Assembly: GCF_000379485.1 (NCBI RefSeq)
Contig: NZ_KB902315.1
Location: 63,489 to 127,488, forward strand
DNA from: Wenxinia marina DSM 24838
GTDB taxonomy: Bacteria > Pseudomonadota > Alphaproteobacteria > Rhodobacterales > Rhodobacteraceae
Length of the DNA stretch: 64,000 nucleotides
Direction: 5' to 3'
Positions within the stretch are counted from its first letter, which is position 1, and the number at the start of each line of letters is the position of its first letter. The position numbers and the translations under genes are program-made. The notes under the pieces were generated by a model. That model worked only from the letters and a program-made list of their open reading frames with translations, was not told the origin of the DNA and ran no database searches. Of this stretch, positions 47,387-64,000 are shown piece by piece.

Positions 47387-48745
47387 ATGAACGTCCAGGA
47401 CAAACGCGCCATCCAGCAGCAGCTGGCCAGCAACGCCATCACGCCCGGCTACATGCCCGGCTTCGGCAACGACCACGAGACCGAGGCGCTGCCGGGCGCC
47501 CTGCCCCAGGGCCGCAACTCGCCCCAGCGGTGTCCCTACGGCCTCTATGCCGAGCAGCTGTCGGGCACCGCCTTCACCGTCCACCCGCCGGAGCGGACCT
47601 GGTGCTACCGCATCCGCCCGTCGGTCAAGCACTCCACCCGCTACCGGCGCATCGACGTGCCCTACTGGAAGAGCGCGCCGCTGATCGACCCCGAGGTGGC
47701 GAGCCTCGGCCAGTACCGCTGGAACCCGGTGGAGGCGGAGGCGGGCGCCGCGCTGACCTGGATCACCGGCATGCGCACGATGACGACGGCGGGCGACGTG
47801 CACACGCAGGTCGGCATGGCCTCCCACGTCTACCTCGTGACCGAGTCGATGGTGGACGACTACTTCTTCTCCGCCGACAGCGAGATGCTGGTGGTGCCGC
47901 AGCAGGGGCGCCTGCGCTTCCATACCGAGCTCGGCATCCTCGACGTGGAGCCGACCGAGATCGCGATCCTGCCCCGCGGCCTCGTCTACCGGGTGGAGCT
48001 GATCGAGGGCCCCGCTCGCGGTTTCGTCTGCGAGAATTACGGCCAGAAGTTCGAGCTGCCGGGTCGCGGGCCGATCGGCGCCAACTGCCTCGCCAACCCG
48101 CGCGACTTCAAGGCGCCGGTCGCGGCGTTCGAGCAGCGCGACACGCCGTCGACCGTCACGGTGAAATGGTGCGGCCAGTTCCACGTGACCGAGATCGGCC
48201 AGTCGCCCCTCGACGTCGTGGCGTGGCACGGCAACTACGCGCCCTACAAGTACGACCTCACCGCCTACTGCCCGGTCGGGGCGCTGCTGTTCGACCATCC
48301 CGACCCGTCGATCTTCACCGTCCTCACGGCCCCGTCGGGCAGCCCGGGCACCGCGAACATCGACTTCGTGCTGTTCCGCGAGCGCTGGATGGTGGCCGAG
48401 AACACGTTCCGCCCGCCCTGGTACCACAAGAACATCATGTCCGAGCTGATGGGCAACATCTACGGCATCTACGACGCCAAGCCCGAGGGGTTCGTGCCCG
48501 GTGGCATGAGCCTGCACAACATGATGCTGCCCCACGGGCCGGACAAGCAGGCCTTCGAGGGGGCGAGCCGGGCGGACCTGAAGCCCGGCAAGCTCGACAA
48601 CACCATGTCCTTCATGTTCGAGACGCGGTTCCCGCAGCAGCTCACGCCGTTCGCGGCCAAGGAAGCGCCGCTGCAGGAAAACTACATCGACGTCTGGTCC
48701 GACCTCGACGTGCATTTCGACGGCACGCCCGAGGGGAAATGGTGA
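47387..48745 (+). CDS. hmgA: Homogentisate 1,2-dioxygenase
   Basis: A 452-aa non-haem iron enzyme that opens the ring of homogentisate to maleylacetoacetate. It begins [26 protein letters not shown], the standard start. Iron ligands fall in [14 protein letters not shown] (His, Glu) and [14 protein letters not shown] (His). AGGAGG lies upstream of ATG 47387. Next in the operon are maiA (overlapping) and fahA, giving a full homogentisate route. Confidence 0.97.
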
Positions 48746-49371
48746 AGCTCTACACCTACTGGCGGTCGACCACCGCCTACCGGGTGCGGATCGCGCTGAA
48801 CCTCAAGGGGATCGCGTACGAACCGGTGCCGGTGAACCTCGTCGCCGGGGAGCAGCGGGCGGCGGACTACGCCCGGATGAACCCCGGCCTCGGGGTGCCG
48901 ACGCTGGTGCTGGAGGACGGGACGGTCCTGACGCAGTCGATGGCGATCCTCGACTGGCTGGAGGAGACGGCGCCTGAGCCGCCGCTTCTGCCCCGCGACC
49001 CCGTCGCCCGCGCACGGGTGCGGGCCGCCGCGCTGACCATTGCGGCGGACGTCCACCCGGTGAACAATCTGCGCGTGACGCAGAAGCTGAAGGAGATGGG
49101 CCATTCCGCCGACGAGGCGACGGCCTGGATGAACGACTGGATGACGCGCGGCTTCACGGCGCTGGCCGCGCTGATCCCGGACGAGGGTCCCTTCGCCTTC
49201 GGCGACGCGCCGGGGCTCGCCGATATCTGCCTCGTGCCGCAGATCTACAATGCGCGGCGCTGGGGCTGCGACCTGACGCCGTTCCCCCGCCTGACGCGGA
49301 TCGAGGCGGCCTGCCTCGCCCTGCCCGCCTTCGCCGCTGCCCGCCCCGAGGCGCAGCCCGACGCGACCTGA
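48739..49371 (+). CDS. maiA: Maleylacetoacetate isomerase (zeta-class GST)
   Basis: A 210-aa glutathione-dependent isomerase turning maleylacetoacetate to fumarylacetoacetate. The N-terminal thioredoxin fold starts [22 protein letters not shown]; the usual SSC catalytic motif is STT here, which keeps the key Ser but lacks the Cys. It retains [25 protein letters not shown], and the C-terminal helix domain ends [21 protein letters not shown] 48739 overlaps the last codons of hmgA by 7 bases. Confidence 0.95.
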
Positions 49372-49386
49372 CCAGAAGGAGCCGAC

Positions 49387-50619
49387 ATGACCGGCCTGAT
49401 GCGATCCTGGATCGAGAGCGCGAACGCGCCCGACACCGACTTTCCGCTGAACAACCTGCCTTACGGCGTGATCGACGTGAACGGCTCGGCCCACTGCGCC
49501 ACGGCCATCGGCGATCAGGTGCTGGACCTGCACGCGCTGGAATCGGGCGGCTGGCTCGACTTCGGCGGGGCGCTGCAGACCGGCGCGATGAACACCTTCA
49601 TGGCCCTCGGCCCCGACGCGTGGGAGAAGCTGCGCGTCACGCTGTTCGGCCTGCTGGCCGAGGGCGCACAGGCGCGCTCCGGGCTGGAGAAGCACCTGTC
49701 GCCGCTCAAGGACGCGAAGATGCGGATGCCCTTCGCGGTCACGGAGTACACCGACTTCTACGCCTCGAAGCAGCACGCGACCAATGTCGGGACGATGTTC
49801 CGCGGCGCCGAGAACGCGCTGCCGCCGAACTGGCTGCACATCCCCATCGGCTACAACGGCCGCGCCTCGTCGGTCGTCGTGTCCGGCACGCCGGTCGTGC
49901 GGCCCTCGGGGCAGCTGAAGGGCCCGGACGACGACGCCCCCCGCTTCGGCCCCTCCCGCCGGTTCGACATCGAGCTGGAGATGGGCGCGATCGTGGGCCG
50001 GCCGTCGAACGGTCCGATCGGCGTCGGCGAGGCCTTCGAGAACATCTTCGGCTACGTCCTGCTCAACGACTGGTCCGCCCGCGACATCCAGGCGTGGGAG
50101 TACCAGCCCCTCGGCCCGTTCCAGGCCAAGGCCACCGCGACCACGATCAGCCCCTGGATCGTCACCGCCGCGGCGCTGGAGCCGTTCCGCACCTCCACCC
50201 CGCCCCGCGAGGTGCCGCTGCTGCCCTACCTGCACGAGCCGGGGCCGATGCTGTACGACATCGACCTCGAGGTCGGGCTGACCCCCGATGGCGGGAGCGA
50301 GACGATCCTCTCCCGCACGAACTACCGCGAGATGTATTACTCGGCGGCCCAGCAGCTGGCCCATCACACCAGCAGCGGCTGCCCGATGCGGGTGGGCGAC
50401 CTTCTAGGGTCCGGCACCATCTCGGGCGAGGCGAAGGACAGCCGCGGGTCGCTGCTGGAGCTGTCGTGGGGCGGCAAGGAGCCGGTGGAGGTGGACGGCG
50501 GCACCCGCAGCTTCGTCGAGGACGGCGACACGCTGACGCTGCGCGGCCACGCGGCCGGCGACGGCTACCGGATCGGCTTCGGCGAATGCCGGGCCCAGGT
50601 GCTGCCGGCGCGGACCTGA
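49387..50619 (+). CDS. fahA: Fumarylacetoacetase
   Basis: A 410-aa hydrolase that splits fumarylacetoacetate into fumarate and acetoacetate. It has the N-terminal SH3-like domain (NNLPYGVIDVNG) and a C-terminal FAH domain with FYASKQHATNVGTMFRG, the metal-binding DIELEMGAIVG, and LLNDWSARDIQAWEYQPLGPFQAKATATTISPW (about 225-257). AAGGAGCCGAC precedes ATG 49387. It is the last gene of the pathway operon; the following 218 bases (50620-50837) show no gene. Confidence 0.97.
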   Translation: MTGLMRSWIESANAPDTDFPLNNLPYGVIDVNGSAHCATAIGDQVLDLHALESGGWLDFGGALQTGAMNTFMALGPDAWEKLRVTLFGLLAEGAQARSGLEKHLSPLKDAKMRMPFAVTEYTDFYASKQHATNVGTMFRGAENALPPNWLHIPIGYNGRASSVVVSGTPVVRPSGQLKGPDDDAPRFGPSRRFDIELEMGAIVGRPSNGPIGVGEAFENIFGYVLLNDWSARDIQAWEYQPLGPFQAKATATTISPWIVTAAALEPFRTSTPPREVPLLPYLHEPGPMLYDIDLEVGLTPDGGSETILSRTNYREMYYSAAQQLAHHTSSGCPMRVGDLLGSGTISGEAKDSRGSLLELSWGGKEPVEVDGGTRSFVEDGDTLTLRGHAAGDGYRIGFGECRAQVLPART

Positions 50620-50837: not shown

Positions 50838-51683
50838 ATGTTCCGCACCACGCTCGCAGCTTTCTCCTCCGTCGCTCTCCTGTCCGCCTGCGCGGGCGGC
50901 GGCGGCGCTCCCCTCGGTCCCGAGGAGCCGCCGGTCGAGGTGCCGGACGACGCGGCGTTCGAGACCTACACGACCTCGCACAACGGCTACGACCGGGCCC
51001 GCCGCGACCTGTCCACGCCCGCGGACGCGGCGATCATCCGCCAATTCGAGGACTCGAACCCGGCCTCGCCGGCCGGCTACCGCAACCTGATCGAGCTGAA
51101 CCGGGCGCTGTATGCTGACCGGATGACGATCGAGGTGCTGGCGCAGGTGGACGGCACGGGCAGCGGCGAGACGGTCCAGCGCCTGCTGCGGCTGACCGCC
51201 GACCAGCAGCCGCTGGAATATTCCCGCACCGGATCGCAGGGGACCTATTTCCTGCGCGGCGCGAACTACGCGTGGGTCACGATCGACGACGGTCCGGTGC
51301 TCAGCGGCAGCGACTCGCGCGGGCTCGTCGACCTCGTGCTCGATTTCGACAACGGGCAGGCCGACATCAACCTGCGCACGACGGTCGCCGGCGCCTCGGT
51401 GGTGCGCAGCGAACTGGTGGCGGAAGACCTGCCGTTCAACATCGTGACCGGCGAGTTCGGGGGGCCCGTGACCGTCGCGATCCACGATCCGGACAGCCCG
51501 CTGATCTTCGAGATTGGCGGCAGCCTGCGCGGCAACGTGGGCGGCACCCCGACCTATGCGAACGGCCGGCACGACCTGTCGGCGTCCGGCCTCTATACCG
51601 CGACGGGCACCGACCAGGGCAGCGACGTCACGATCGAGGGGGCGTTCGCCGGCATCGACCCCAATGCCCTCCCCCCGGGCTGA
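50838..51683 (+). CDS. Lipoprotein with beta-sandwich/barrel-like C-terminus (possible Slam cargo)
   Basis: A 281-aa lipoprotein. The signal MFRTTLAAFSSVALLSAC ends in the lipobox LSAC, making Cys18 the lipidated residue, followed by a Gly/Pro-rich tether. The rest is rich in short strands and Gly/Asp turns (GLVDLVLDFDNGQADINL, GSLRGNVGGTPTYANGRHDLSASGLYTATG, VTIEGAFAGIDPNA). This looks like the C-terminal eight-stranded barrels of TbpB-like surface lipoproteins, an inference from pattern. Its stop overlaps the next gene by 20 bases. The next gene resembles a Slam barrel, which supports surface export. Confidence 0.72.
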   Translation: MFRTTLAAFSSVALLSACAGGGGAPLGPEEPPVEVPDDAAFETYTTSHNGYDRARRDLSTPADAAIIRQFEDSNPASPAGYRNLIELNRALYADRMTIEVLAQVDGTGSGETVQRLLRLTADQQPLEYSRTGSQGTYFLRGANYAWVTIDDGPVLSGSDSRGLVDLVLDFDNGQADINLRTTVAGASVVRSELVAEDLPFNIVTGEFGGPVTVAIHDPDSPLIFEIGGSLRGNVGGTPTYANGRHDLSASGLYTATGTDQGSDVTIEGAFAGIDPNALPPG

Positions 51684-52713
51684 GCCGGCGGCGGCGGTCC
51701 GCGCGCTCGCATTCGCCGCCGCGGTCGCGTGGTCCTGCGGCCCAGCCGCGGCGGAAGGGGACCTGTCCCGGCTGGCCCCCCTCGCCGCGTCAGAGCGGTT
51801 GCGGGTCTTCGCCGCAGGCGACCGCCTCGCATCGGGGGCGGCCACGGGGGCGGAGCTGGAGGCCTTGCGCGCGGCCATGGTGCGCCAAGGCTTCTACGGA
51901 ACGGGCGTCGTCGGGGCGGCTGCGTCGGTGTCGCCGTACCTGTCCTACGACAGCAACATCAACGGCGGCGTCACGCAGGACCGCTTCACGGTCAGCGGCC
52001 TCGTCTTCGAGGCCGCGCCGGAGTCGCGGGCCGTGGCCGGGGTGGTCGTCGGCGCGACCGGCGGGGCCGAGCTGCGCTACGCCTGGGCCGAAGGCCGCGT
52101 CATCCAGGCCGGCGTGCGGGGGCTCGGCGCCGTCGCCCCGACCGAGCAGCTCGGCTACGCGGCGGTCGAGGGGCGCCTGTGTTCGCTCAACCACCTGTCG
52201 GGCTGGACCTTCGCGGACTTCTGTCTCGAGGGGGTGGCGCAGGACAGAGAGCTCGGCCGGTCCGAGGCCTGGGCCGGCACGCTGGGGCTGTCGACCCTCT
52301 TCGAGACCCCGGTCGGGGCGCACGACCTGACGGTCGAGGTCGCATCGTTCGACGGCCAGCCGCAGGGGACGCTGTCGCTGGAGACCGTCTTCCCGGCCCT
52401 CGTGGCCGATGTCGGCCTGACCGCGGGCGTGTCCGTCCCGAACGAGACGGCGCTGACGGCGCGCGTGTCCGGGGGCGTCCGGTGGCTGTGGGGCGATGCG
52501 CCCGCCACTGCCCGGTTGTGGTACGAAGAGCGGGACGGCGGGCTGTTCCTCGGCCGGCCGCGCCGGGATCGAACCGCGGGCGTGTCGCTCGGGCGAAGCA
52601 TCGGCCAGGGGATCAACGTCGAGATTCGCTGGTCCCGGACCGATTCGACGGCCGACCTGTACGACGACGATTCGGTGTCGGCGAGCGTGACGTTCGGCGG
52701 CTTCAGTCGCTAG
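51664..52713 (+). CDS. Outer-membrane barrel protein, Slam/DUF560-like
   Basis: A 349-aa protein from ATG 51664 with a signal peptide (about 8-30, ending GPAAA). A short helical part (residues 31-70) precedes a beta-rich region starting VSPYLSYDSNINGGVTQDRFTVSGLVFEAAPESRAVAGVVVGA, about residues 83-125. It then runs as alternating strands to the C-terminus, which ends with an aromatic strand (SVSASVTFGGFSR). The Y-D-S-N-I-N-G-G start of the barrel and the overlap with a lipoprotein gene recall Slam (surface lipoprotein assembly modulator, DUF560) exporters. The long TPR domain of neisserial Slams is missing or very short. The family is not certain. Confidence 0.65.
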   Translation: MPSPRAEPAAAVRALAFAAAVAWSCGPAAAEGDLSRLAPLAASERLRVFAAGDRLASGAATGAELEALRAAMVRQGFYGTGVVGAAASVSPYLSYDSNINGGVTQDRFTVSGLVFEAAPESRAVAGVVVGATGGAELRYAWAEGRVIQAGVRGLGAVAPTEQLGYAAVEGRLCSLNHLSGWTFADFCLEGVAQDRELGRSEAWAGTLGLSTLFETPVGAHDLTVEVASFDGQPQGTLSLETVFPALVADVGLTAGVSVPNETALTARVSGGVRWLWGDAPATARLWYEERDGGLFLGRPRRDRTAGVSLGRSIGQGINVEIRWSRTDSTADLYDDDSVSASVTFGGFSR

Positions 52714-53126: not shown

Positions 53127-54812
53127 ATGAACGGATTTCTCAACCACCTAGGCGCATGCACGGCGCTTCAGCCGGCTGGATCGACCGCCTACTTCGTCGC
53201 GGGACTGCTCCCGGCCTTCGTCCTGTTCCGGGCGATCCTCGCACGGCAGCCCACCTTCTTCGGCAAGCGCTATTTCATGATCGCCAACTGGGCGGTCATC
53301 TGGTGGATCTTCGCGGTCCTGATGGAGCTGATCTCCATCGACCCGGGCTGCAAGGTCGCCTGGGGCACGGCCGCGTTCCTCGGGATCGGCGCCGTTCCGG
53401 TCGCATGGTTCCTGTTCGTCTACCGCTTCACCCGGGGTGAATCCGGGCCGGTGGCGCGCTGGCAGGCCGCCCTCCTGATCGGCGTGCCCCTCGCCGTGTT
53501 CGCGCTCGCCGCGACCAACCCCTGGCATCATGCCTTCTACAACCCGGTCAGCGTGCCGGTGAGCGACGAACCGGGCGCTCCCCTGATCTACGAGCACCGG
53601 GTCCTGTACTATGTCGCGGCAGGCGGCCTGTACTGCTTCCTGCTGGGCGCCTATGGCCTGCTTGCGGCGGCGATCGTGCGGGGCGAGGGTCTTGCCCGGC
53701 TTCTCTACTCGCTCCTGTTCCTTCTGGCCGCGATCCCCACGGCCGCGAACGTCGCCTACATCCTCACGGGATGGAGCATCGGCGGCTTCGATCCGACGCC
53801 GATCCTGTTCTCGACGGTCCTGCTGATCTACTCGGCGCTGATCTCGCTCAACCAGTTCTTCCAGCTGACCACGGTCGCGAAGGACGTGGTGCTCGAGAAC
53901 CTTCCCGACCCGGTCCTCGTCATCGGACGTGACGGCAAGATCATGGTGGCGAACGCCCGGGCGGCCGAGGTGTTCGGCATCGACATGTCGCAGGAGCCGA
54001 CGGTCGAGACCTTCCCCCAGGTCGCGCGGCTTCTGGCCCTCATCCTGGATGCCGAGGGCGGCACGCGGTCGTTGCCCGAGATCAGCGTGAACGGCGCCGA
54101 CTACGAGGTGCGCTACACCTCGGTCGACGGCCAGTCGCGCCGCAAGGATCACGCCATCGGCTTTGCCCTGCTGTTCTCCGAGATCACCAACCGCAAGTCG
54201 ATGCAGATGCAGCTCGCCACGGTCCTGCTCTCCCGCGAGGAGGAGCTGGCCCAGATGACGCGGCAGAACCGCCGGATCAACGATGAGGTCCGGACCGATC
54301 CGCTGACCGGCCTGCTGAACCGCCGTGCCCTGTCGGAAGAGATCGCACGGCTGAACGAGGACGACTCCTTCTCGCGCGAGCCGATGGTCGCGACGATCAT
54401 CGACATCGACCACTTCAAGTCGATCAACGACCGCTTCGGCCACTATACCGGCGACGCGGCGCTGACGACGCTGGCGACCTGTCTGCGCGAGGGGTTCCGC
54501 AAGGAGGACAGGATCTTCCGCCTGGGCGGCGAGGAATTCCTCGTCCTGTCCCCGTCGATCGACCTGTCGACGCTCTACGACCGCATCGACCGGCTCAAGA
54601 CCACGGTGGCACAGGCCGCCCGCGTCATCCCCGGCGACTTCGAGCTGCGCTTCTCCGCAGGTGTTGCCGTCAGTCCCTACGATGCGGATACCCTGACCGA
54701 TCTCGTTGCCGCCGCCGACCGCCGCCTTTACGAAGCGAAGAGCGCGGGGCGGGACCGCACGCAGGGACCCGCCCCCTGCGCCGGGGCGGAGGGCGAGGTC
54801 AGATATGCGTAG
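53127..54812 (+). CDS. Membrane diguanylate cyclase (7TM + PAS-like + GGEEF)
   Basis: A 561-aa inner-membrane enzyme that makes c-di-GMP from two GTP. It has an N-terminal seven-helix sensor of the histidine-kinase-7TM type (about 20-240), then a PAS-like domain (DVVLENLPDPVLVIGRDGKIMVANARAAEVFG, about 252-283), a short coiled coil, and a GGDEF domain starting RTDPLTGLLNRRAL. The active site is RLGGEEF. An I-site RxxD (RKED) lies five residues before it, so product inhibition is expected. The next gene starts 8 bases inside this one. Position at the head of the bcs operon implies local supply of c-di-GMP to BcsA. Confidence 0.93.
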   Translation: MNGFLNHLGACTALQPAGSTAYFVAGLLPAFVLFRAILARQPTFFGKRYFMIANWAVIWWIFAVLMELISIDPGCKVAWGTAAFLGIGAVPVAWFLFVYRFTRGESGPVARWQAALLIGVPLAVFALAATNPWHHAFYNPVSVPVSDEPGAPLIYEHRVLYYVAAGGLYCFLLGAYGLLAAAIVRGEGLARLLYSLLFLLAAIPTAANVAYILTGWSIGGFDPTPILFSTVLLIYSALISLNQFFQLTTVAKDVVLENLPDPVLVIGRDGKIMVANARAAEVFGIDMSQEPTVETFPQVARLLALILDAEGGTRSLPEISVNGADYEVRYTSVDGQSRRKDHAIGFALLFSEITNRKSMQMQLATVLLSREEELAQMTRQNRRINDEVRTDPLTGLLNRRALSEEIARLNEDDSFSREPMVATIIDIDHFKSINDRFGHYTGDAALTTLATCLREGFRKEDRIFRLGGEEFLVLSPSIDLSTLYDRIDRLKTTVAQAARVIPGDFELRFSAGVAVSPYDADTLTDLVAAADRRLYEAKSAGRDRTQGPAPCAGAEGEVRYA

Positions 54813-55464
54813 TCGAGCGGTACGGGGTGTTGTTGCGGCACTCCTCCTGTCGGGTCTGTCGGCGTGCGTCGCCCCTGGACTGGGCAATCTCAGCCTCGAG
54901 ACGCTTCAGACGTCCCGCCAGTTCGTCATGACGCGCCTGTCGCTGGCTTGGGCCGCCCCGCGCGGTGCTCTGATCGCCATACAGCGCAGCCTCGGCACGG
55001 AGCAGGAGCAGCTGATCGGCCTGGTCAACGACACCACGCTCGAAGGCGACAACATCCTGTGGCTGCGGGCGCGTGTGCCCGACGGGCGCAGTCCCGGGGC
55101 CTTCCGCCTCGACGACTTCCTGTCCCGGACCGAGGGCGTCCCGTCCCCGTTCGCCAACGTCTCCGACGACGATCTGCGCCGCGCGACCGATACGCTGGGC
55201 ACCTATTTCTACCTCGTCTACCAGACCGGCGGGCAGACGAACTGCGTGCTGGCCTTCCGGCGGATCGACGGCGCGGAACGACTGCTGCCGCGCGGCACGA
55301 ACATCATGGAAGTGATGCTGCGCAACTGCGTTCTCGGCCCGGTGGAGCAGGCGCTGCTGCCGATCACCGACCGGCAGATCGGCGTCTCCGCGGTCGCGGC
55401 GGTCCAGACGGGCGAGGGCGGCAACCGCATGCTGTCTCCGCTGGCGGCGCCGGAGGTTCAATGA
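54805..55464 (+). CDS. BcsN-like lipoprotein of the cellulose operon
   Basis: A 219-aa predicted lipoprotein: the signal ends LSGLSAC, with lipidated Cys near residue 21. The body contains NILWLRARVPDGRSPGAFRLDDFL, a Cys pair (TNCVLAFRRIDGAERLLPRG and MLRNCVLGP) and an alternating C-terminus. Alphaproteobacterial cellulose operons often carry BcsN upstream of bcsA, and the Cys-containing NC-x-x-A-F segment resembles it. The match is by position and weak pattern. It overlaps the diguanylate cyclase gene by 8 bases and lies 25 bases before bcsA. Confidence 0.72.
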   Translation: MRSRAVRGVVAALLLSGLSACVAPGLGNLSLETLQTSRQFVMTRLSLAWAAPRGALIAIQRSLGTEQEQLIGLVNDTTLEGDNILWLRARVPDGRSPGAFRLDDFLSRTEGVPSPFANVSDDDLRRATDTLGTYFYLVYQTGGQTNCVLAFRRIDGAERLLPRGTNIMEVMLRNCVLGPVEQALLPITDRQIGVSAVAAVQTGEGGNRMLSPLAAPEVQ

Positions 55465-55489: not shown

Positions 55490-57862
55490 GTGACCGCCGT
55501 CGTTCGTCGCCGCCGTCGCCGCGGCGTCCCGGAACTGCTCCTCTGGGTCCTCCTGGCGGTCGTCATCGCGGGCCTCGTCAGCGTTCCGCTGTCGACGAAC
55601 GGCCAGGGCTTCCTCAGCATCGTCGCCGTGGCCGTGGTGGCCTGTCTCAAGCCGTTCGCCCGGCTCCTCGTGGCGCGCTTCTTCCTGCTCGCCACGGCGA
55701 GCGTGCTGGTCCTGCGCTACTATCTGTGGCGGATCCTCGAGACGCTGCCCGACCCGGGCCTCACCGTGTCGTTCGTGGTCGCGATCATGCTGCTGGTGGT
55801 CGAGACCTACTCGATCATGGTGTTCTTCCTGAACGCCTTCATCGGCGCCGACCCGACCCGTCCGCCGTTCCCGCCCAAGGTCGACCCCGAGGATCTGCCG
55901 ACGGTCGACATCCTCGTTCCGTCCTACAACGAACCGGCCGAGATGCTGTCGGTCACCCTCGCGGCGGCCAAGAACATGATCTACCCGTCCGCCAAGCGGA
56001 CGGTCGTCCTGTGCGACGACGGCGGCACCGACCAGCGCTGCAACTCCTCCGATCCCGAACTCGCCGCCAGGGCGCGGGCCCGCCGCGCGGAGCTGCAGGC
56101 GCTGTGTGCCGAGCTCGGCGTGAAATACTCCACGCGCGCCAGGAACGAGCACGCCAAGGCCGGCAACATGAGCGCGGCGCTCGCCGACCTGAATGGCGAC
56201 CTCGTCGTCGTGTTCGACGCCGACCACGTGCCCAGCCGCGACTTCCTCGCCCGGACGGTGAACTACTTCGTGGCGGAGCCCGAGCTGTTCCTCGTCCAGA
56301 CGCCGCACTTCTTCATCAACAAGGACCCGATCCAGCGGAACCTCGAGCTCAGCGAGGCCTGCCCGCCCGAGAACGAGATGTTCTACAGCCTGATCCACCG
56401 CGGGCTGGACCGGTGGGGCGGCGCGTTCTTCTGCGGCTCCGCCGCGGTGCTGCGGCGCCGCGCCCTCGACAGCGTGGGCGGCTTCGCGGGCGAGACGATC
56501 ACCGAGGACGCGGAGACCGCGCTGGAGATCCACGCCTCGGGCTGGAAGAGCCTCTATCTCGACCGCGCTATGATCGCCGGCCTGCAGCCCGAGACCTTCG
56601 CCTCCTTCATCCAGCAGCGTGGCCGCTGGGCGGCGGGCATGATGCAGATGCTGCTGCTCAAGCGGCCGCTGACGCGGCGCGGCCTCAGCGTTCCGCAGCG
56701 GATCTGCTACATCAACTCGATGAGCTTCTGGCTCTTCCCGCTGATGCGGCTGTTCTACCTCTACGTTCCGCTGGTCTACCTGTTCTTCGGGATCGAGATC
56801 TTCGTCGCGACCTTCGACGAGGTCATCGCCTACATGCTGGGCTACCTGGCCGTCTCCTTCCTGGTGCAGAACGCGCTCTACGCCCGCTTCAGGTGGCCGC
56901 TGATCTCCGAGATCTACGAGGTGGCGCAGGCGCCCTATCTGGCCCTGGCGGTGCTGCGCACGGTCCTGCGGCCGCGCGGCGCCAAGTTCAACGTCACCGC
57001 CAAGGACGAGACGCTGAACCAGAACTACATCTCGCCGATGCACTGGCCGCTGACGATCCTGTTCCTGACGATGCTGGCCGGCCTCGTCGCGTTCGGCATC
57101 CGCTGGTACACCTTCCCCGGCGACCGGGCCGTCCTGTCCGTCGTCGGCGGCTGGGGCATATTCAACTTCATCCTCGTGGGCGTGGCCTGGCGCGCGGTCG
57201 CCGAGCGGCAGCAGCGCCGCGCCTCGCCCCGCGTCGCGATGGACGAGGAGGCGACCCTCTCGATCCCGGGCAGCGAGCACGCGGCGATCCCCGTGCGGAT
57301 CACCGACACCTCGACCAGCGGCGCCGGGGTGCTGGTGGAGGGCAACGCGCTGCCGGGCGGCGCGACGGTGGCCGCGCTCCGGGGCAAGACGGTGATCCTG
57401 ACACCGACCCTCGCCTCGAACCCGACGCTGTCCTCGCCGATCGCCGCGACCGTCGTGTCGATCAAGCCGGCGCAGGAGGGCCAGTCCCTCGGCGTGCTCT
57501 TCGACGCGCACCAGCCGATGAAGGTGCGCGAGACCGTCGCCTTCCTGATCTTCGGCGACAGCGAGAACTGGCGCAGCATCCGCCACTCGACCCGCCGGCC
57601 CAAGGGTCTGCTCGCCGGCCTCGCCTACGTGCTGGGGCTGTTCTTCCGGGGCATGCCGCTGGTCCTGCGCGAGTTCTGGCGCGAGCCCGCGCGCCGCCGC
57701 GACGTCCAGGTGAACCAGGTCGCGACGGAGAAGCCGGCGCACCTCCTCGCCTTCGGCGTGGATGTGGAGGAGAGAGAGCGCCTCGCGGCCGAAGAGGCCG
57801 AGGCCGAGGCCGCCGCGGAGGCCGCCGCCAAGGAGCGGCGCGACCTCGCCGAGGCGTCATGA
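55490..57862 (+). CDS. bcsA: Cellulose synthase catalytic subunit (UDP-forming)
   Basis: A 790-aa inner-membrane glucosyltransferase that polymerises UDP-glucose and extrudes the glucan. Catalytic motifs are CDDGG (Asp176-177), DAD (243-245), FFCGS (313-317), TED (Asp340) and QQRGRW (375-380). These lie within three residues of the numbering in R. sphaeroides BcsA (788 aa). The C-terminal PilZ domain has RASPR (RxxxR) and DTSTSGAG, so c-di-GMP activation is expected. About eight helices are present, and the C-terminal tail is charged. The start is GTG 55490. It overlaps bcsB by ATGA. Confidence 0.97.
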   Translation: MTAVVRRRRRRGVPELLLWVLLAVVIAGLVSVPLSTNGQGFLSIVAVAVVACLKPFARLLVARFFLLATASVLVLRYYLWRILETLPDPGLTVSFVVAIMLLVVETYSIMVFFLNAFIGADPTRPPFPPKVDPEDLPTVDILVPSYNEPAEMLSVTLAAAKNMIYPSAKRTVVLCDDGGTDQRCNSSDPELAARARARRAELQALCAELGVKYSTRARNEHAKAGNMSAALADLNGDLVVVFDADHVPSRDFLARTVNYFVAEPELFLVQTPHFFINKDPIQRNLELSEACPPENEMFYSLIHRGLDRWGGAFFCGSAAVLRRRALDSVGGFAGETITEDAETALEIHASGWKSLYLDRAMIAGLQPETFASFIQQRGRWAAGMMQMLLLKRPLTRRGLSVPQRICYINSMSFWLFPLMRLFYLYVPLVYLFFGIEIFVATFDEVIAYMLGYLAVSFLVQNALYARFRWPLISEIYEVAQAPYLALAVLRTVLRPRGAKFNVTAKDETLNQNYISPMHWPLTILFLTMLAGLVAFGIRWYTFPGDRAVLSVVGGWGIFNFILVGVAWRAVAERQQRRASPRVAMDEEATLSIPGSEHAAIPVRITDTSTSGAGVLVEGNALPGGATVAALRGKTVILTPTLASNPTLSSPIAATVVSIKPAQEGQSLGVLFDAHQPMKVRETVAFLIFGDSENWRSIRHSTRRPKGLLAGLAYVLGLFFRGMPLVLREFWREPARRRDVQVNQVATEKPAHLLAFGVDVEERERLAAEEAEAEAAAEAAAKERRDLAEAS

Positions 57863-60087
57863 TCCGCCGCTGGCTTCCACCGCTGCTCGTCGGGGCCGTC
57901 GTCATGTCCCCGGTCGCCCGTGCGCAGGAGACGGCGGACGAGCCGGTGATCGACCTCTCGCCGCTGCTCGGTCTCGAGGGCGTCCAGCCGACGGACGAGG
58001 CGGAGGATCCCGCCGCTCCGGCCGACGAGATCGACGCGGTCCTGCCGGACTACTCGCGCCGCGCTCCGGGCGACGCCGCCGCCGACGCAGCCGCCGGGGA
58101 GGAACCCGACGCGGCCGAAGCGCCGGAGCCCGAGCCTCAGGTCCTGTTCCCCGCCGTCGCCAACGGCGGCTTCGGCATCCAGCGGATGAGCGGCGAGCAC
58201 GCCCGGATGGAGCTGCGCGTGATCGTCCCGCCCGGTGCGGACGTCGAGGCGCTGACGGTCTCGTACCGCAACAGCATCAACGTCCTGACCGCGGAATCGC
58301 AGATCACCGCGATCCTGAACGGGGTCGAGATCGGCAGCTGGGCGCCCAACGCGTTCGCGGGGTTCGAGACCGTTTCGCTGCCGACCGACGAGCTGCGATC
58401 CGGCAGCAACGAACTGATCCTTCTCGGCGATCACCGCCACCGCATCTTCTGCGGCCCCGACGCCACGTTCGAGGTGTGGACAGAGGTGGACACCGCCGGC
58501 ACCGGCGTCACCCTCGATCTCGGCCAGCTGTCGGCCCAGAGCCAGAGCCTGGCCGACACGCTTCTCGCGCAGCTCTCGTCAGGCGGCGGCGTCCCGCTCG
58601 TCGCCGCCGGGACTCCCGACCCGGCGCTCGTCGCGGAACTGCGGCGCCGGATCGGCGGGCTGATGCCGGGCCTCCTGCCCGACCTGCCGGTGGAGAGCGC
58701 CTACACCCCCGCCGGCGAGACGCCGTCCCTCGCCCGCGTCGCCATCGTGCCCGATACCGAAGGGCCGCCGGTCGAGGTGCGCCGGACGCCGGAGGGGGGC
58801 CTCGTCCTCGTCGTCGAGGAAGGCGCCGAGCCGTCGGCCCTCGACACGTTCCTCCCGCTTCCCGAGGCTCGCACGGGTCCGACATTGGTCGATCCGGGCC
58901 AGCCCGCGAGCCTCGACGACCTCGGCTCCGGCGCCATCGAGATGCGCGAGCGCTACGAGCGGGTGGACGTGGATTTCCGCCTGCCCCGCGACTGGCTGCT
59001 GATGTCATCGCAGAAGGCGCAGATCGACCTGACCTACGGCTATGCGGCCGACCTTCCCGAAGGGTCGCTCCTGCTCGTCAAGGTCAACGACACGACCGTG
59101 CGCCTGCTGCCGCTCTTCGGCCAGGGGGGCGAGGTGCTGCCGACGCTGCCGATCGGCTTTCCGGCGCGGCTGCTGTCGCCGGGCATGAACCGCCTCAGCT
59201 TCGAGGCGGTGGTCCCGGGCGACCCGCCGGACCTGCCGTGCCCGCCGGTCGACGGCCCCATCTTGGCGATTTCCGGCGACAGCAGCCTCAGCGTGCCGCC
59301 CTCGCCCCGGATGCGGCGGATCGACATGGGGCCGACCCTGTACGAGCTGGGCTCGGGCACCATCGAGGCGGTGCCCGGCGTGGCGGAGAACAGCCGCGCC
59401 GCCGCCGTCGATGCCCGTCTCGCGACGTTGGCCACGCCGTATCGCCTGGATGCCGACGCCGGCGACGGCCCGGCGCCGAGCCTGGTGATCGCGGATCTCA
59501 CGAGGCTGGACGACGTGCCGCTGGGCGCGGTCGGCCTTGACCGGATGCGGCTGGAGACCGCCCTCGGGGTCGCGCGCCCCGATCTCGAGGAGGACATTGC
59601 CGAAGGCTCGACCGTGTGGTCGCTCTCGCGCCTGTCCGACGCGGCCCGGACTCTATGGCAGCGGATCGCGGGCATCGCCCGTCCCGGAGATCCGCCGCTC
59701 GACCGGTGGCTGTCGGACCGGCAGGGCACTGCCCTTCTCGTCATGCCGCGCCCGGACGTGCCGGAAGAGCTGGTCCTGATCCTCGGCCAGCGCGCCGATC
59801 CCGCCACCGTGGCCGCCGCGGTCGAGAAGGGGCGGACCGATCCCGACGGTCCTGGCGGCCAGGCCGCGCTCCTCAATGCGGACGGCACGTGGGAGACATG
59901 GCAGCCCGCCGGCGTCGCCCCGGTGCTGGAAGAGCCGCTGACCATCCGCAACGCGCGGATCGTCGCGGGCAACTACGCGTCGTGGTCGCCCTTCATCTAC
60001 GTCGCCCTTCTGACCGTTCTCGTTTCCATCTCGGTCCTTCTGGGCCTCATCTTCGTCGTCCGCACACGGGAGAGCCGCAACCGATGA
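57859..60087 (+). CDS. bcsB: Cellulose synthase periplasmic subunit BcsB
   Basis: A 742-aa periplasmic partner of BcsA, anchored by one C-terminal helix (FIYVALLTVLVSISVLLGLIFVV). The signal peptide ends PVARA. An acidic Pro/Ala-rich linker (about 25-90) precedes the alternating carbohydrate-binding and flavodoxin-like domains (GFGIQRMSGEHARMELRVIVPPGADVEALTVSYRNS; later LDLGQLSAQ). The final amphipathic interface helix and TM segment are needed for BcsA activity in R. sphaeroides. It overlaps bcsA and bcsZ by 4 nt each. Confidence 0.95.
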   Translation: MIRRWLPPLLVGAVVMSPVARAQETADEPVIDLSPLLGLEGVQPTDEAEDPAAPADEIDAVLPDYSRRAPGDAAADAAAGEEPDAAEAPEPEPQVLFPAVANGGFGIQRMSGEHARMELRVIVPPGADVEALTVSYRNSINVLTAESQITAILNGVEIGSWAPNAFAGFETVSLPTDELRSGSNELILLGDHRHRIFCGPDATFEVWTEVDTAGTGVTLDLGQLSAQSQSLADTLLAQLSSGGGVPLVAAGTPDPALVAELRRRIGGLMPGLLPDLPVESAYTPAGETPSLARVAIVPDTEGPPVEVRRTPEGGLVLVVEEGAEPSALDTFLPLPEARTGPTLVDPGQPASLDDLGSGAIEMRERYERVDVDFRLPRDWLLMSSQKAQIDLTYGYAADLPEGSLLLVKVNDTTVRLLPLFGQGGEVLPTLPIGFPARLLSPGMNRLSFEAVVPGDPPDLPCPPVDGPILAISGDSSLSVPPSPRMRRIDMGPTLYELGSGTIEAVPGVAENSRAAAVDARLATLATPYRLDADAGDGPAPSLVIADLTRLDDVPLGAVGLDRMRLETALGVARPDLEEDIAEGSTVWSLSRLSDAARTLWQRIAGIARPGDPPLDRWLSDRQGTALLVMPRPDVPEELVLILGQRADPATVAAAVEKGRTDPDGPGGQAALLNADGTWETWQPAGVAPVLEEPLTIRNARIVAGNYASWSPFIYVALLTVLVSISVLLGLIFVVRTRESRNR

Positions 60088-61157
60088 ACAGACGCAGGCT
60101 ACTTCAGTCGAGCTTCGGTGCAGTCGCGTCGCTGATGGCGGGCGGAGCGTTGGCGCAGGCCGGCCGCGGAACGCACCCCCTGACGGCAGCGTGGGAGGTC
60201 TGGAAGGCGGCCTACCTCGAGCCCGACGGCCGGGTGGTCGACAGACTGCAGCAGGGCGCCAGCCACTCCGAAAGCCAGGGCTACGGCCTGTTGCTCGCGG
60301 CCACGGTGGGGGACGAGGCGGCGTTCGACAGCATCAACGCCTGGACGATGTCGAACCTGAGGATGCGGCCCGACCACCTGTTCGCCTGGCGCTGGCTGCC
60401 GGACAGCGCGACCAACGTGCCCGACCGCAACAACGCCAGCGACGGCGATCTGTTCTACGCCTGGGGCCTGATCCGCGGCGCCGTCACCCTGCAGCGCCCC
60501 GAGCTGATCGACCGGGCGACCGACATCGCGACCGACCTCGCCGCGGCCTGTATCCAGCCGCATCCCGACGGCAGCGGCCGGCTCGTCTTCACCCCCGCGG
60601 CGGGCGGATTCCAGCGGGACGAGGGGCTGATCGTGAACCCTTCGTACATGATGCCGCTCGCGATGCGCGAGGTCGCGGCGTCGACCGGCGTCTCGGCCTT
60701 CGCCCGCTGCGCCGACGACAGCGTCCGCATCATCACCGACCTCGCCCAGGGCGGACTCGTGCCCGACTGGATCGAACTGCGGCCCGGCGGCGCCGTGCCG
60801 GCCGAGGGCATGTCGAACGAAAACGGGTACGAGGCGATGCGCGTGCCGCTGTTCCTCGTCTGGTCGGGCCAGCAGCAGCATCTCGCCGTCCGGCGCCAGT
60901 CGGCCGCCTACGCCGACGCCGACACCGCGCGTGGCGCCACGCCCACGGTCCTGGACCGAGGCACGGGAGTGGTATTGGAAACCAGCTCCGATCCGGGGTA
61001 TTCCGCACTCGCGGGGCTGTCGCTCTGCGTCACGTCAACGCGGGCCGGTGCCTTGATGCCGCGCTTCTCGACGCGGCAACCTTACTACCCGGCCACGCTG
61101 CACCTGATGACGCTGCTGGCCCAGTTCGAGGCGGTTTCGAGATGCGTTCCCATCTAG
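60084..61157 (+). CDS. bcsZ: Periplasmic endo-beta-1,4-glucanase, GH8
   Basis: A 357-aa family-8 glycoside hydrolase that trims or edits cellulose in the periplasm. It has an N-terminal signal with an RRR motif (MNRRRLLQSSFGAVASLMAGGALA), possibly Tat. Catalytic Glu is in GASHSESQGYGLLLA and Asp in NNASDGDLFYAWGLIRGA. It also has NPSYMMPLAMRE. The ATG overlaps the bcsB stop. The gene is a standard part of bcs operons. Confidence 0.94.
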   Translation: MNRRRLLQSSFGAVASLMAGGALAQAGRGTHPLTAAWEVWKAAYLEPDGRVVDRLQQGASHSESQGYGLLLAATVGDEAAFDSINAWTMSNLRMRPDHLFAWRWLPDSATNVPDRNNASDGDLFYAWGLIRGAVTLQRPELIDRATDIATDLAAACIQPHPDGSGRLVFTPAAGGFQRDEGLIVNPSYMMPLAMREVAASTGVSAFARCADDSVRIITDLAQGGLVPDWIELRPGGAVPAEGMSNENGYEAMRVPLFLVWSGQQQHLAVRRQSAAYADADTARGATPTVLDRGTGVVLETSSDPGYSALAGLSLCVTSTRAGALMPRFSTRQPYYPATLHLMTLLAQFEAVSRCVPI

Positions 61158-62686
61158 GCTTTGCCCGGCTGCCGGCCTTCTGCCTCGCGGCGTTCGTCGG
61201 CTTCGCCGCCCTTCCCGCCGCCGCGCAGGACGCCCCCACGGCCGAGGATCTTCGCGCGCTCGTCTTCTACATCGAGAACAACGAGACGGCCGCCATACAG
61301 GCAGAGCTGCGGCGCCTGAGGATCGAGTTTCCGGGCTGGACCCCGCCGGAAGATCTGTCCGAGCTGGGCGTGACGGCGCTGGCCCCCAACGTCGAGGTCG
61401 ATGACATCTACGCGGCGATCGCCCGCGGCGACGTGGCCGGCGCTCGCCGGCTGATCGACGAGACGCGGGCGCAGTTCCCGGGATGGACTCCGCCGCAGGA
61501 CATGCAGACGCTCCTCGCCACCGCCGACGCGTCGTCCCGGTTCGACGAGGCGATCGGAGCGCGCGATCCGGTCGCCGCCCTGCGGATCGCGGTCGACAAT
61601 CCCGAGCTGCTGCGCTGCAACCGGATCAACAACCCCTGGCGCCTGGCCGAGCTGCAGGAAGCGACGGGCAATCCCGCCGCCGCCCTCGCCACCTATCGCC
61701 AGATCATCGCCTCATGCTCGGCCGCCGACGACCTGATCGCGACGATCGAGAAGGCGAACTCCGTCGCCTCGACCGACCAGATCAACGCCCTGATCGCCAG
61801 CGCCACCGCGCGCAACCCGGCCGCGTCCGAGCGGCTGGAGCAGCTGCGCCGCCGCCTCCTCGCCGGTCGCGGCATCGCGATCCAGACCGAGCCGGATGCG
61901 CCGCGCGCCTCGACCGAGCCCGCCCCCGCGGCCACGCCCCGGCCGGTCCCGACCGCGCCGGCGGCGGCTCCGGCCCCCGCGCCCCGTGCGCCCGCGCCCG
62001 CCCCCGCGGCGGCCCCGGCCCCTGCGCCCCGCGCCCCCGCGCCCGCCCCGACCGCCGCGGCGCCGGTGGTCGCGGGCGTCGCGCCCGGCACGCCGGCGGT
62101 CAGCCCGCTGGCGTCCCTGAGCCTGCGCGGCGACGGCCGCCTCGCCCAGGTCCGCGCCGCGGCGGCGGCCGCCGACTTCCGCACCTGCGCCGCCCGGTCC
62201 ACCTCGCCCCAGTCGATCGAGGTGGCCTACGAGCGGGCCTGGTGCGTCTACAACCTCGAGCGCCCGCTGGAGGCGCTTGCCCTCTTCACCCTCGCCGCCA
62301 ACAGCAGCCTCGGCGGCACCGTCCGGCGCGACGCGCGCTACGGGATGGCCCTGTCCTACCTCAAGCGGAACATGACCGACGCCGCCTCCGAGATCGCGGC
62401 CTCGACCGACCTGACGCTCGACCAGCGCCGCACCGTGGAGGCCATCATCCTCGACCAGCGCGGCGTGCGGGCCTACCAGGAAGAGGACTACGACCGCGCG
62501 ATCGTCTACTTCGACGGTCTGGAAGAGCTCGAAGGCACGCTGCGCCGCGACCTCGCGATCCTGCGCGCCTATGCGTACCTCAATTCCGGCGATGTCCGCC
62601 GCGCGCGCGAGGAGTTCCAGCGCCTCGACAGCGAGCTGCGCACCGAAGACACCCGCGCCGGCCTGGCCGCCGCCCGGACCCAGTAG
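61142..62686 (+). CDS. Periplasmic TPR-like protein of the cellulose operon
   Basis: A 514-aa protein with signal peptide (ends PAAAQ). The N-terminal domain has a duplicated motif: FPGWTPPEDL (about 64-73) and FPGWTPPQDM (about 114-123), each after a helical LRRLRIE/RRLIDETRAQ. A tandem Ala/Pro linker (about 270-305) separates it from C-terminal TPR units (AYERAWCVYNLERPLEALALF; EEDYDRAIVYFDGLEELEG). It occupies the BcsC slot but lacks the C-terminal outer-membrane barrel. It probably scaffolds the periplasmic export path. It overlaps bcsZ by 16 bases. Confidence 0.82.
   Translation: MRSHLGFARLPAFCLAAFVGFAALPAAAQDAPTAEDLRALVFYIENNETAAIQAELRRLRIEFPGWTPPEDLSELGVTALAPNVEVDDIYAAIARGDVAGARRLIDETRAQFPGWTPPQDMQTLLATADASSRFDEAIGARDPVAALRIAVDNPELLRCNRINNPWRLAELQEATGNPAAALATYRQIIASCSAADDLIATIEKANSVASTDQINALIASATARNPAASERLEQLRRRLLAGRGIAIQTEPDAPRASTEPAPAATPRPVPTAPAAAPAPAPRAPAPAPAAAPAPAPRAPAPAPTAAAPVVAGVAPGTPAVSPLASLSLRGDGRLAQVRAAAAAADFRTCAARSTSPQSIEVAYERAWCVYNLERPLEALALFTLAANSSLGGTVRRDARYGMALSYLKRNMTDAASEIAASTDLTLDQRRTVEAIILDQRGVRAYQEEDYDRAIVYFDGLEELEGTLRRDLAILRAYAYLNSGDVRRAREEFQRLDSELRTEDTRAGLAAARTQ
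61960..62055 (+). repeat. Ala/Pro tandem repeat coding region
   Basis: Two near-identical ~42-base units encode AAPAPAPRAPAPAP twice in the linker of the TPR protein. It is a length-variable hinge typical of periplasm-spanning proteins. Confidence 0.7.
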
Positions 62687-62835: not shown

Positions 62836-64000
62836 ATGCGTCGCCTCGCCGTTCCCCTTCTCGCCTCCGCCGTCTCCGCCCTCGCCCTCGCCGCCGCCGC
62901 GCAGGACGCGCCCGTGCGGGCCGTCACCCTGTACGAGGCCGGTCTCGCCGACCTCGTCCGCGAGACCGGCGATGCCGACGCCCTGTCGCTGCGGATCCCG
63001 CTGCGGGACGTCGACGACGTCCTGAAATCCCTGCTGGTGCGGGGCCGCGGCATCGACGGGGCGATGATCGCCCTCGACGGGCCCGAGCCGGTGGCGGACG
63101 CCTTCGCCGCCCTGCCCTTCGGGCCCGACGCGGCCCGCGACTTCGAGACGCTCCTGCGGTCCCTGCCCGGCCTGCGCGTCAGCGTCTCCACCGCCGGCGG
63201 GATCGAACCGCGGGCGGGCCAGGTGCTGGAGGTCAGCGAGAGCTGTGCACAGGAAACCGGCTGCACCACCCATGTTACCGTCTTTCACGACGACGGCGCG
63301 ATCCGCCGCTGGCCGCTCGACGGCACGGCCGCCATCGCCATCGACGACCCCGAGATCGCCGACGCGCTGCGCGAGGCGCTGACGATCCTGCGGGACAGCG
63401 CGGCGGGCGACAGCCGCGAGGTGACGATCAGCTTCACGGGCGACGACATCGCCGACGGCGCCGTCAGCTACGTCATCGCCGCGCCGGCCTGGAAGACCGC
63501 CTACCGCGCCCTGACGGACGGCGACGGCGCGGTCGACCTGCAGGCCTGGGCGGTGATCGAGAACGCGACCGGCGAGGACTGGGAGGACGTGACCCTGACC
63601 CTGTCCTCCGGCACGCCGCGGACCCTGCGGGCCGACCTCTTCGGCCGCGACTGGCGCTACCGCGAGGAGGCGGGCTTTGGCGACGGCATCGTCGAGGCGC
63701 CGGTGGTGATGGTGGAGCCGCAGATGCGCGCCTACGACGAGGCCGAGAGCTTCGGCGGCGCGATGGCGGGGATCGCGCCGCCGGCCCCCGCGCCGGTTGC
63801 GGCGGCCGCCACGGGCGCGGAAGGCGCGCTCGACAGCCGCTTCACCTTCGACGAGACGGTCGATCTGGACGCGGGCCAGATGCTGTCGATGCCGTTCCTG
63901 TCCGGCGCTCTGGAGGCGGAGAACCTCAAGCTCTGGCGCGGCCGGCTGGGCAACCGGACCGGCGCGCCGGAGATGCGGCTCGAGATCGTCAACGACCTGA
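62836..64000 (+). CDS. DUF4139 domain protein (runs off window end)
   Basis: At least 388 codons, open to the last base, so the C-terminus is missing. The signal peptide MRRLAVPLLASAVSALALAAAAQ is followed by VRAVTLYEAGLADLVRETG and LRDVDDVLKSLLVRG, both typical of the N-terminal DUF4140-like part. The core is VSYVIAAPAWKTAYRALTDGDGAVDLQAWAVIENATGEDWEDVTLTLSSGTPRTLRADL, about 215-275, the DUF4139 signature. The family is secreted and its function is unknown. CCGGAG lies 10 bases before the ATG. It is 149 bases after the cellulose operon and may or may not belong to it. Confidence 0.88.
   Translation, partial: MRRLAVPLLASAVSALALAAAAQDAPVRAVTLYEAGLADLVRETGDADALSLRIPLRDVDDVLKSLLVRGRGIDGAMIALDGPEPVADAFAALPFGPDAARDFETLLRSLPGLRVSVSTAGGIEPRAGQVLEVSESCAQETGCTTHVTVFHDDGAIRRWPLDGTAAIAIDDPEIADALREALTILRDSAAGDSREVTISFTGDDIADGAVSYVIAAPAWKTAYRALTDGDGAVDLQAWAVIENATGEDWEDVTLTLSSGTPRTLRADLFGRDWRYREEAGFGDGIVEAPVVMVEPQMRAYDEAESFGGAMAGIAPPAPAPVAAAATGAEGALDSRFTFDETVDLDAGQMLSMPFLSGALEAENLKLWRGRLGNRTGAPEMRLEIVNDL

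Follow-up and report, generated by a model that had tools for sequence, protein, structure and literature searches.

A TPR-less Slam-like lipoprotein and barrel gene pair beside a type III cellulose synthase locus in Wenxinia marina

Two overlapping genes in the window (the whole 64,000-nucleotide stretch of Wenxinia marina DSM 24838 DNA that was analysed) code for a predicted lipoprotein and a predicted outer-membrane barrel, and they abut a type III cellulose synthase (Bcs) locus with the gene order BcsN-BcsA-BcsB-GH8-BcsK. The reading that we favour, with reasonable but far from complete confidence, makes the pair a minimal export module of type 11 (Slam-like) serving cellulose production, with both the export and the cellulose role being inferred. 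What has been computed is the gene pair and its coupling, the predictions of 14 strands for the barrel and eight for the lipoprotein, the homology of the barrel with Slam barrels, and a strict co-occurrence and frequent linkage with bcs genes. The features of the pair are as follows.

50838..51683, + strand: cargo-type lipoprotein gene (ATG 50838, TGA 51683, 281 aa)
51243..51656, + strand: eight-strand region at the C-terminus of the lipoprotein (residues 136-273; AlphaFold2 model)
51664..52713, + strand: TPR-less Slam-like outer-membrane barrel gene (ATG start, 349 aa)
51763..51885, + strand: three short helices (residues 34-40, 44-57 and 62-74) replacing the TPR domain (AlphaFold2 model)
51904..52695, + strand: 14-strand barrel, residues 81-344 (AlphaFold2 model)
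51943..51969, + strand: SYDSNINGG, residues 94-102, the strand 1/loop 1 signature in common with Slam barrels (sNiN.G)

The gene pair and its predicted products

The lipoprotein is laid out as a signal peptide II, a Gly-rich linker, an N-terminal domain and the C-terminal eight-strand region. The lipobox is LSAC, with the Cys18 codon at 50889-50891 and AGGGG directly following, and a Gly-rich linker after the lipid Cys is present in 18 of 21 cargo proteins versus 6 of 21 other local lipoproteins. Both features that mark a cargo-type protein, a type II signal peptide (lipobox) and eight C-terminal strands, are present, the latter in an AlphaFold2 model with a pLDDT of 87.2; a closed barrel is not shown. 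By analogy with Slam cargo, the C-terminal region is presumed to be the export signal (PMC5449769). Relatives of the pair in public plasmid records are labelled 'viral aspartic protease', 'lipocalin' or hypothetical protein; at four loci (L062 on NZ_CP030275.1, L063, L065 and L066) the first label is on the lipoprotein and the second on the barrel relative, and both look like misannotations.

The barrel protein has an N-terminal signal peptide (approximately residues 1-30). Its AlphaFold2 model, built from 22 sequences, has a mean pLDDT of 90.9 and 14 barrel strands, from 81-96 to 335-344, with a small hairpin (107-116) in the first long loop left out of the count. Between the signal peptide and strand 1 the model has only the three short helices listed above, and no match to a TPR or TPR_Slam model was found in the protein. 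Neither member of the pair has a Pfam or NCBIfam match, even at an E value of 10, with BCSC_C (PF05420) likewise not matching the barrel in the Pfam search, and sequence searches of the PDB with the lipoprotein and barrel profiles gave no match for either. A scan for promoters and terminators found none.

These features had in part been anticipated in an earlier note on this DNA. The 20-base overlap of the genes is exact (51664-51683); the signal peptide of the barrel protein, the barrel-like C-terminal region of the lipoprotein and the near absence of a TPR part are all borne out, and the 14-strand barrel that the note had proposed as a check is what AlphaFold2 predicts. Its description of SYDSNINGG as the first strand is only roughly right, in that the motif covers the last residues of strand 1 and continues into the first long loop.

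Conservation of the pair and relationship to Slam barrels

When 84,980 species were scanned with only the alignment of the lipoprotein as query, 21 loci were identified, all in Rhodobacterales or alphaproteobacterial records, and a barrel gene adjoins the lipoprotein gene in all 21 of these species, with an overlap of 4-20 bp in most. Among 27 loci recovered by barrel searches, the lipoprotein gene is directly upstream on the same strand in 22 (at one of these, L041/L080, it was missed by the lipobox scan and found by tblastn) and downstream in one. As the partner is present at 21/21 cargo loci and 22/27 barrel loci, the pairing is not a matter of chance. Mean column identity is 51% for the cargo (12 rows) and 35% for the barrel with the sister branch included (25 rows), or 46% and 45% respectively over the same 22 loci. 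A first contig scan with a single barrel sequence as query gave no relatives, and a class-wide search of 385 genomes (E up to 1e-10), in which each order is thinly sampled, gave only the window's own match. The pair is plasmid-borne in several strains, and it is carried by Cereibacter sphaeroides 2.4.1 (lipoprotein DQL45_RS21515 and barrel DQL45_RS21510, on plasmid pC), the species from which the model BcsA-BcsB structures come.

The PF04575 HMM does not match the window barrel or the other nine members scanned. Comparison of the barrel profile by hhalign with PF04575-positive Slam/T11SS barrels of the same bacterial family gives 99.3% (E 8e-21, 266 columns), with control values of 10% for a reversed profile, no more than 0.2% for five column shuffles, and 14% for a same-family porin profile. 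The match spans the NiN.G loop and the C-terminal R.D...STvDLY region, and both likenesses are visible by eye between the window barrel and a canonical relative (L059). The fold assignment rests on these profiles together with the strand counts. In a tree of 55 barrels, arbitrarily rooted and with the canonical rows trimmed to their last 300 residues, a 100/100 branch separates the TPR-less from the canonical proteins, and a 100/96 branch sets off the subfamily of the window barrel (A, 28 rows). A canonical relative matches TPR_19 and, weakly, TPR_Slam.

A sister branch (B) consists of barrels of the same TPR-less group, and its cargo at four loci (L004, L036, L050 and L052) matches PF01298 (TbpB_B_D) above the curated cut-off. 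The window-type cargo has no PF01298 match, and its hhalign comparisons with the TbpB_B_D cargo profiles give 3-28% over the C-terminal part; a sequence relation between the two is not shown.

The earlier note's proposal of a Slam-type pair is thus supported by the 14 predicted strands, the barrel profile match, a lipoprotein partner that is translationally coupled and kept in different genera, and the PF01298 cargo of the sister branch. The link to DUF560 that it asked to see is provided by the PF04575-positive barrels, and the unrelated porin that would have refuted it is not what the profiles indicate. Of its two suggestions, a minimal version or a new exporter class, the first is upheld by the position of the TPR-less proteins on one side of the 100/100 branch, and the second was overstated: judged by sequence, the window barrel belongs, as a branch, to the DUF560/T11SS superfamily, which is already known. 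Without the TPR domain it falls outside the strict published definition of Slam, and export itself is inferred, although the TPR-less branch probably works like Slam.

Every Slam in the published survey has an N-terminal periplasmic TPR domain, with no barrel-only sequence reported (PMC5449769), and the T11SS network was built out of recognised DUF560 proteins (PMC8406197), such that a TPR-less branch would have been missed. An exporter of this type is plausible because, in NilB, the defects caused by small deletions in the N-terminal domain are relieved when the whole domain is removed (PMC8406197).

Two side observations concern other barrels of this superfamily. Outside the window, the same genome encodes a PF04575-positive protein at the family cut-off (G000:C1:3436-3780, E 2.2e-4), and it probably holds a second T11SS barrel. 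At L054, L057, L058 and L060 a lipoprotein gene whose product ends RTYGENIARGQ...SGH..N adjoins canonical TPR-bearing T11SS genes; this end resembles a CAP/SCP domain, and the lipoprotein is possibly a new cargo or a chance neighbour.

Association with cellulose synthase genes

The link to cellulose synthase was absent from the earlier note. The genes downstream of the pair are as follows.

53127..54812, + strand: diguanylate cyclase (7TM sensor, PAS, GGDEF), a c-di-GMP source
54805..55464, + strand: BcsN-like lipoprotein without a Pfam match, named from its conserved position upstream of bcsA
55490..57862, + strand: BcsA, cellulose synthase catalytic subunit; closest solved structure 4HG6
57859..60087, + strand: BcsB
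60084..61157, + strand: GH8 endoglucanase (BcsZ)
61142..62686, + strand: BcsK-like periplasmic TPR scaffold without a C-terminal barrel

The gene after BcsK (62836-64000) is for a secreted protein and runs past the end of the window. Directly upstream of the pair (47387-50619) are homogentisate dioxygenase, maleylacetoacetate isomerase-like and fumarylacetoacetase-like genes (tyrosine degradation, named by eye), which are apparently unrelated to it.

Co-occurrence was scored with BcsA, because at E 1e-10 the Pfam model for BcsB failed to pick up evident BcsB genes. BcsA is present in all 13 genomes with a window-type pair, as against 34 of 391 Rhodobacterales genomes overall (Fisher p=1.4e-15, with no correction for relatedness, the counted species being related and not independent), and in none of the nine sister-branch genomes among the same 391. 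In the 21 cargo-scan species BcsA is on the fetched DNA in 13 and elsewhere in the genome in the other eight (8/8). The two sets have six species in common, and after their removal the merged set contains 28 pair-bearing species, all with BcsA. Because cellulose synthase is present in every one of these species, the pair is probably an accessory of cellulose production in bacteria that has so far gone unrecognised. The bcs genes are on the same DNA stretch as the pair in 21 of the 28, in four arrangements (convergent, downstream, divergent and upstream), with short contigs hiding part of the linkage; in some genomes, including Cereibacter sphaeroides, the two are unlinked. At L078/L137 a second BcsA-like glycosyltransferase (~31-35% identity) is located between the bcs locus and the pair.

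The pair is absent from 21 of the 34 bcs-bearing genomes, and it is therefore not essential to cellulose secretion in general; a universal cellulose channel or exit is ruled out on the same count. No gene family substitutes for the pair at these 21 loci, and apart from the pair no recurring gene set distinguishes the pair-linked bcs loci from them. A search for BcsS (PF17036) gave no match, but the control was also silent and absence is not shown.

It is possible, though we consider it unlikely, that the barrel is nonetheless the outer-membrane cellulose channel, forming with its neighbours a split BcsC in which BcsK is the scaffold, the barrel the pore and the lipoprotein an accessory (compare AlgK with AlgE in alginate export). 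In type III Bcs systems BcsK is a scaffold only (PMC11470070, PMC6559018, PMC9012009) and often stands in for BcsC (PMC11470070), a BCSC_C barrel (PF05420) is over the cut-off in 0/34 bcs-bearing genomes, barrel and BcsA co-occur strictly, and PgaA-type exporters entered the PF04575 network before filtering (PMC8406197). These points are countered by the match of the barrel to lipoprotein-linked Slam barrels, and by a sister branch whose partners are TbpB_B_D lipoproteins and in which bcs is absent. Since most bcs loci manage without the barrel and show no recurring substitute gene, a pore role is less likely, although it is not excluded for the pair-bearing subset. For that subset of type III systems, we give equally little credence to a TPR-less lipoprotein exporter having been recruited, with the BcsK scaffold and with the lipoprotein as gate or anchor, as the missing exit that passes or holds the polymer.

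We also regard as improbable a Slam-type exporter with a cargo unrelated to cellulose, its linkage to bcs reflecting only shared inheritance or plasmid co-transfer. Such an origin would fit the plasmid location in several strains and the genomes in which pair and bcs are unlinked, but not the presence of BcsA in all 28 pair species even where linkage is lacking, the four different gene arrangements, or the absence of BcsA from the sister branch (0/9). That the barrel is an ordinary porin or adhesin, with the lipoprotein as a periplasmic assembly helper or plug and no export at all, is very unlikely: no export assay exists and outer-membrane lipoproteins mostly face the periplasm, but the porin profile falls far short of the Slam barrels, Slam signatures are present at both ends of the 14-strand barrel, and the lipoprotein has a predicted cargo architecture.

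Proposed role and comparison with known systems

In the favoured reading, that of a minimal export module serving cellulose production, the lipoprotein would be synthesised with a type II signal peptide, lipidated, and then carried to the outer membrane by Lol. The 14-strand barrel, in which the Slam TPR domain would be reduced to a short helical segment, is proposed to recognise the C-terminal eight-strand domain and pass the lipoprotein to the cell surface. There it may act together with cellulose from the neighbouring type III Bcs machine, its most likely task being to hold or organise the polymer as it emerges. The lipidation, the export, the location on the cell surface and the part played with cellulose are each inferred. 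Such a TPR-less pair would link a protein-export module to exopolysaccharide production, and it suggests that Slam-like export may not need the TPR domain. In the open-licence papers searched we found no description of an adjacent lipoprotein-barrel pair at a type III Bcs locus or of how cellulose passes the outer membrane in type III systems, and none joining T11SS with cellulose synthase or the full Slam name with cellulose.

The pair shares with Slam1 and Slam2 of Neisseria and with T11SS/DUF560 (PF04575, SlipAM) the 14-strand barrel, the NiN.G loop, the C-terminal R.D/STvDLY region, and a coupled lipoprotein with an eight-strand C-terminal region. Slam has two TPRs, whereas the window barrel has no TPR domain and is undetected by PF04575, its cargo is unlike TbpB in sequence, and it is tied to cellulose synthase rather than to iron uptake. 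Cluster 3 of the T11SS is found in the same bacterial families (Roseobacteraceae/Rhodobacteraceae), and its cargo lipoprotein, encoded at a conserved locus, is of similar length (282-375 aa) (PMC12282271). The neighbours at cluster 3 loci are DUF1194, thyX and gloA (PMC12282271), in contrast to the bcs genes of the window branch. Our canonical rows include relatives of the cluster 3 type, such as L010, which has a glyoxalase-like gene next to it; most of the canonical T11SS proteins retrieved are ~420-460 aa long, their barrel being preceded by a longer N-terminal domain, as compared to ~350 aa in the window branch. Like the window barrel, BcsC, the cellulose exporter of E. coli, is an outer-membrane barrel encoded beside bcs genes, but it combines TPRs and barrel in one chain, and the window barrel has no BCSC_C match. 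The type III locus itself (BcsN-BcsA-BcsB-BcsZ-BcsK) is present in the window as in Cereibacter sphaeroides, with a BcsA closest to 4HG6.
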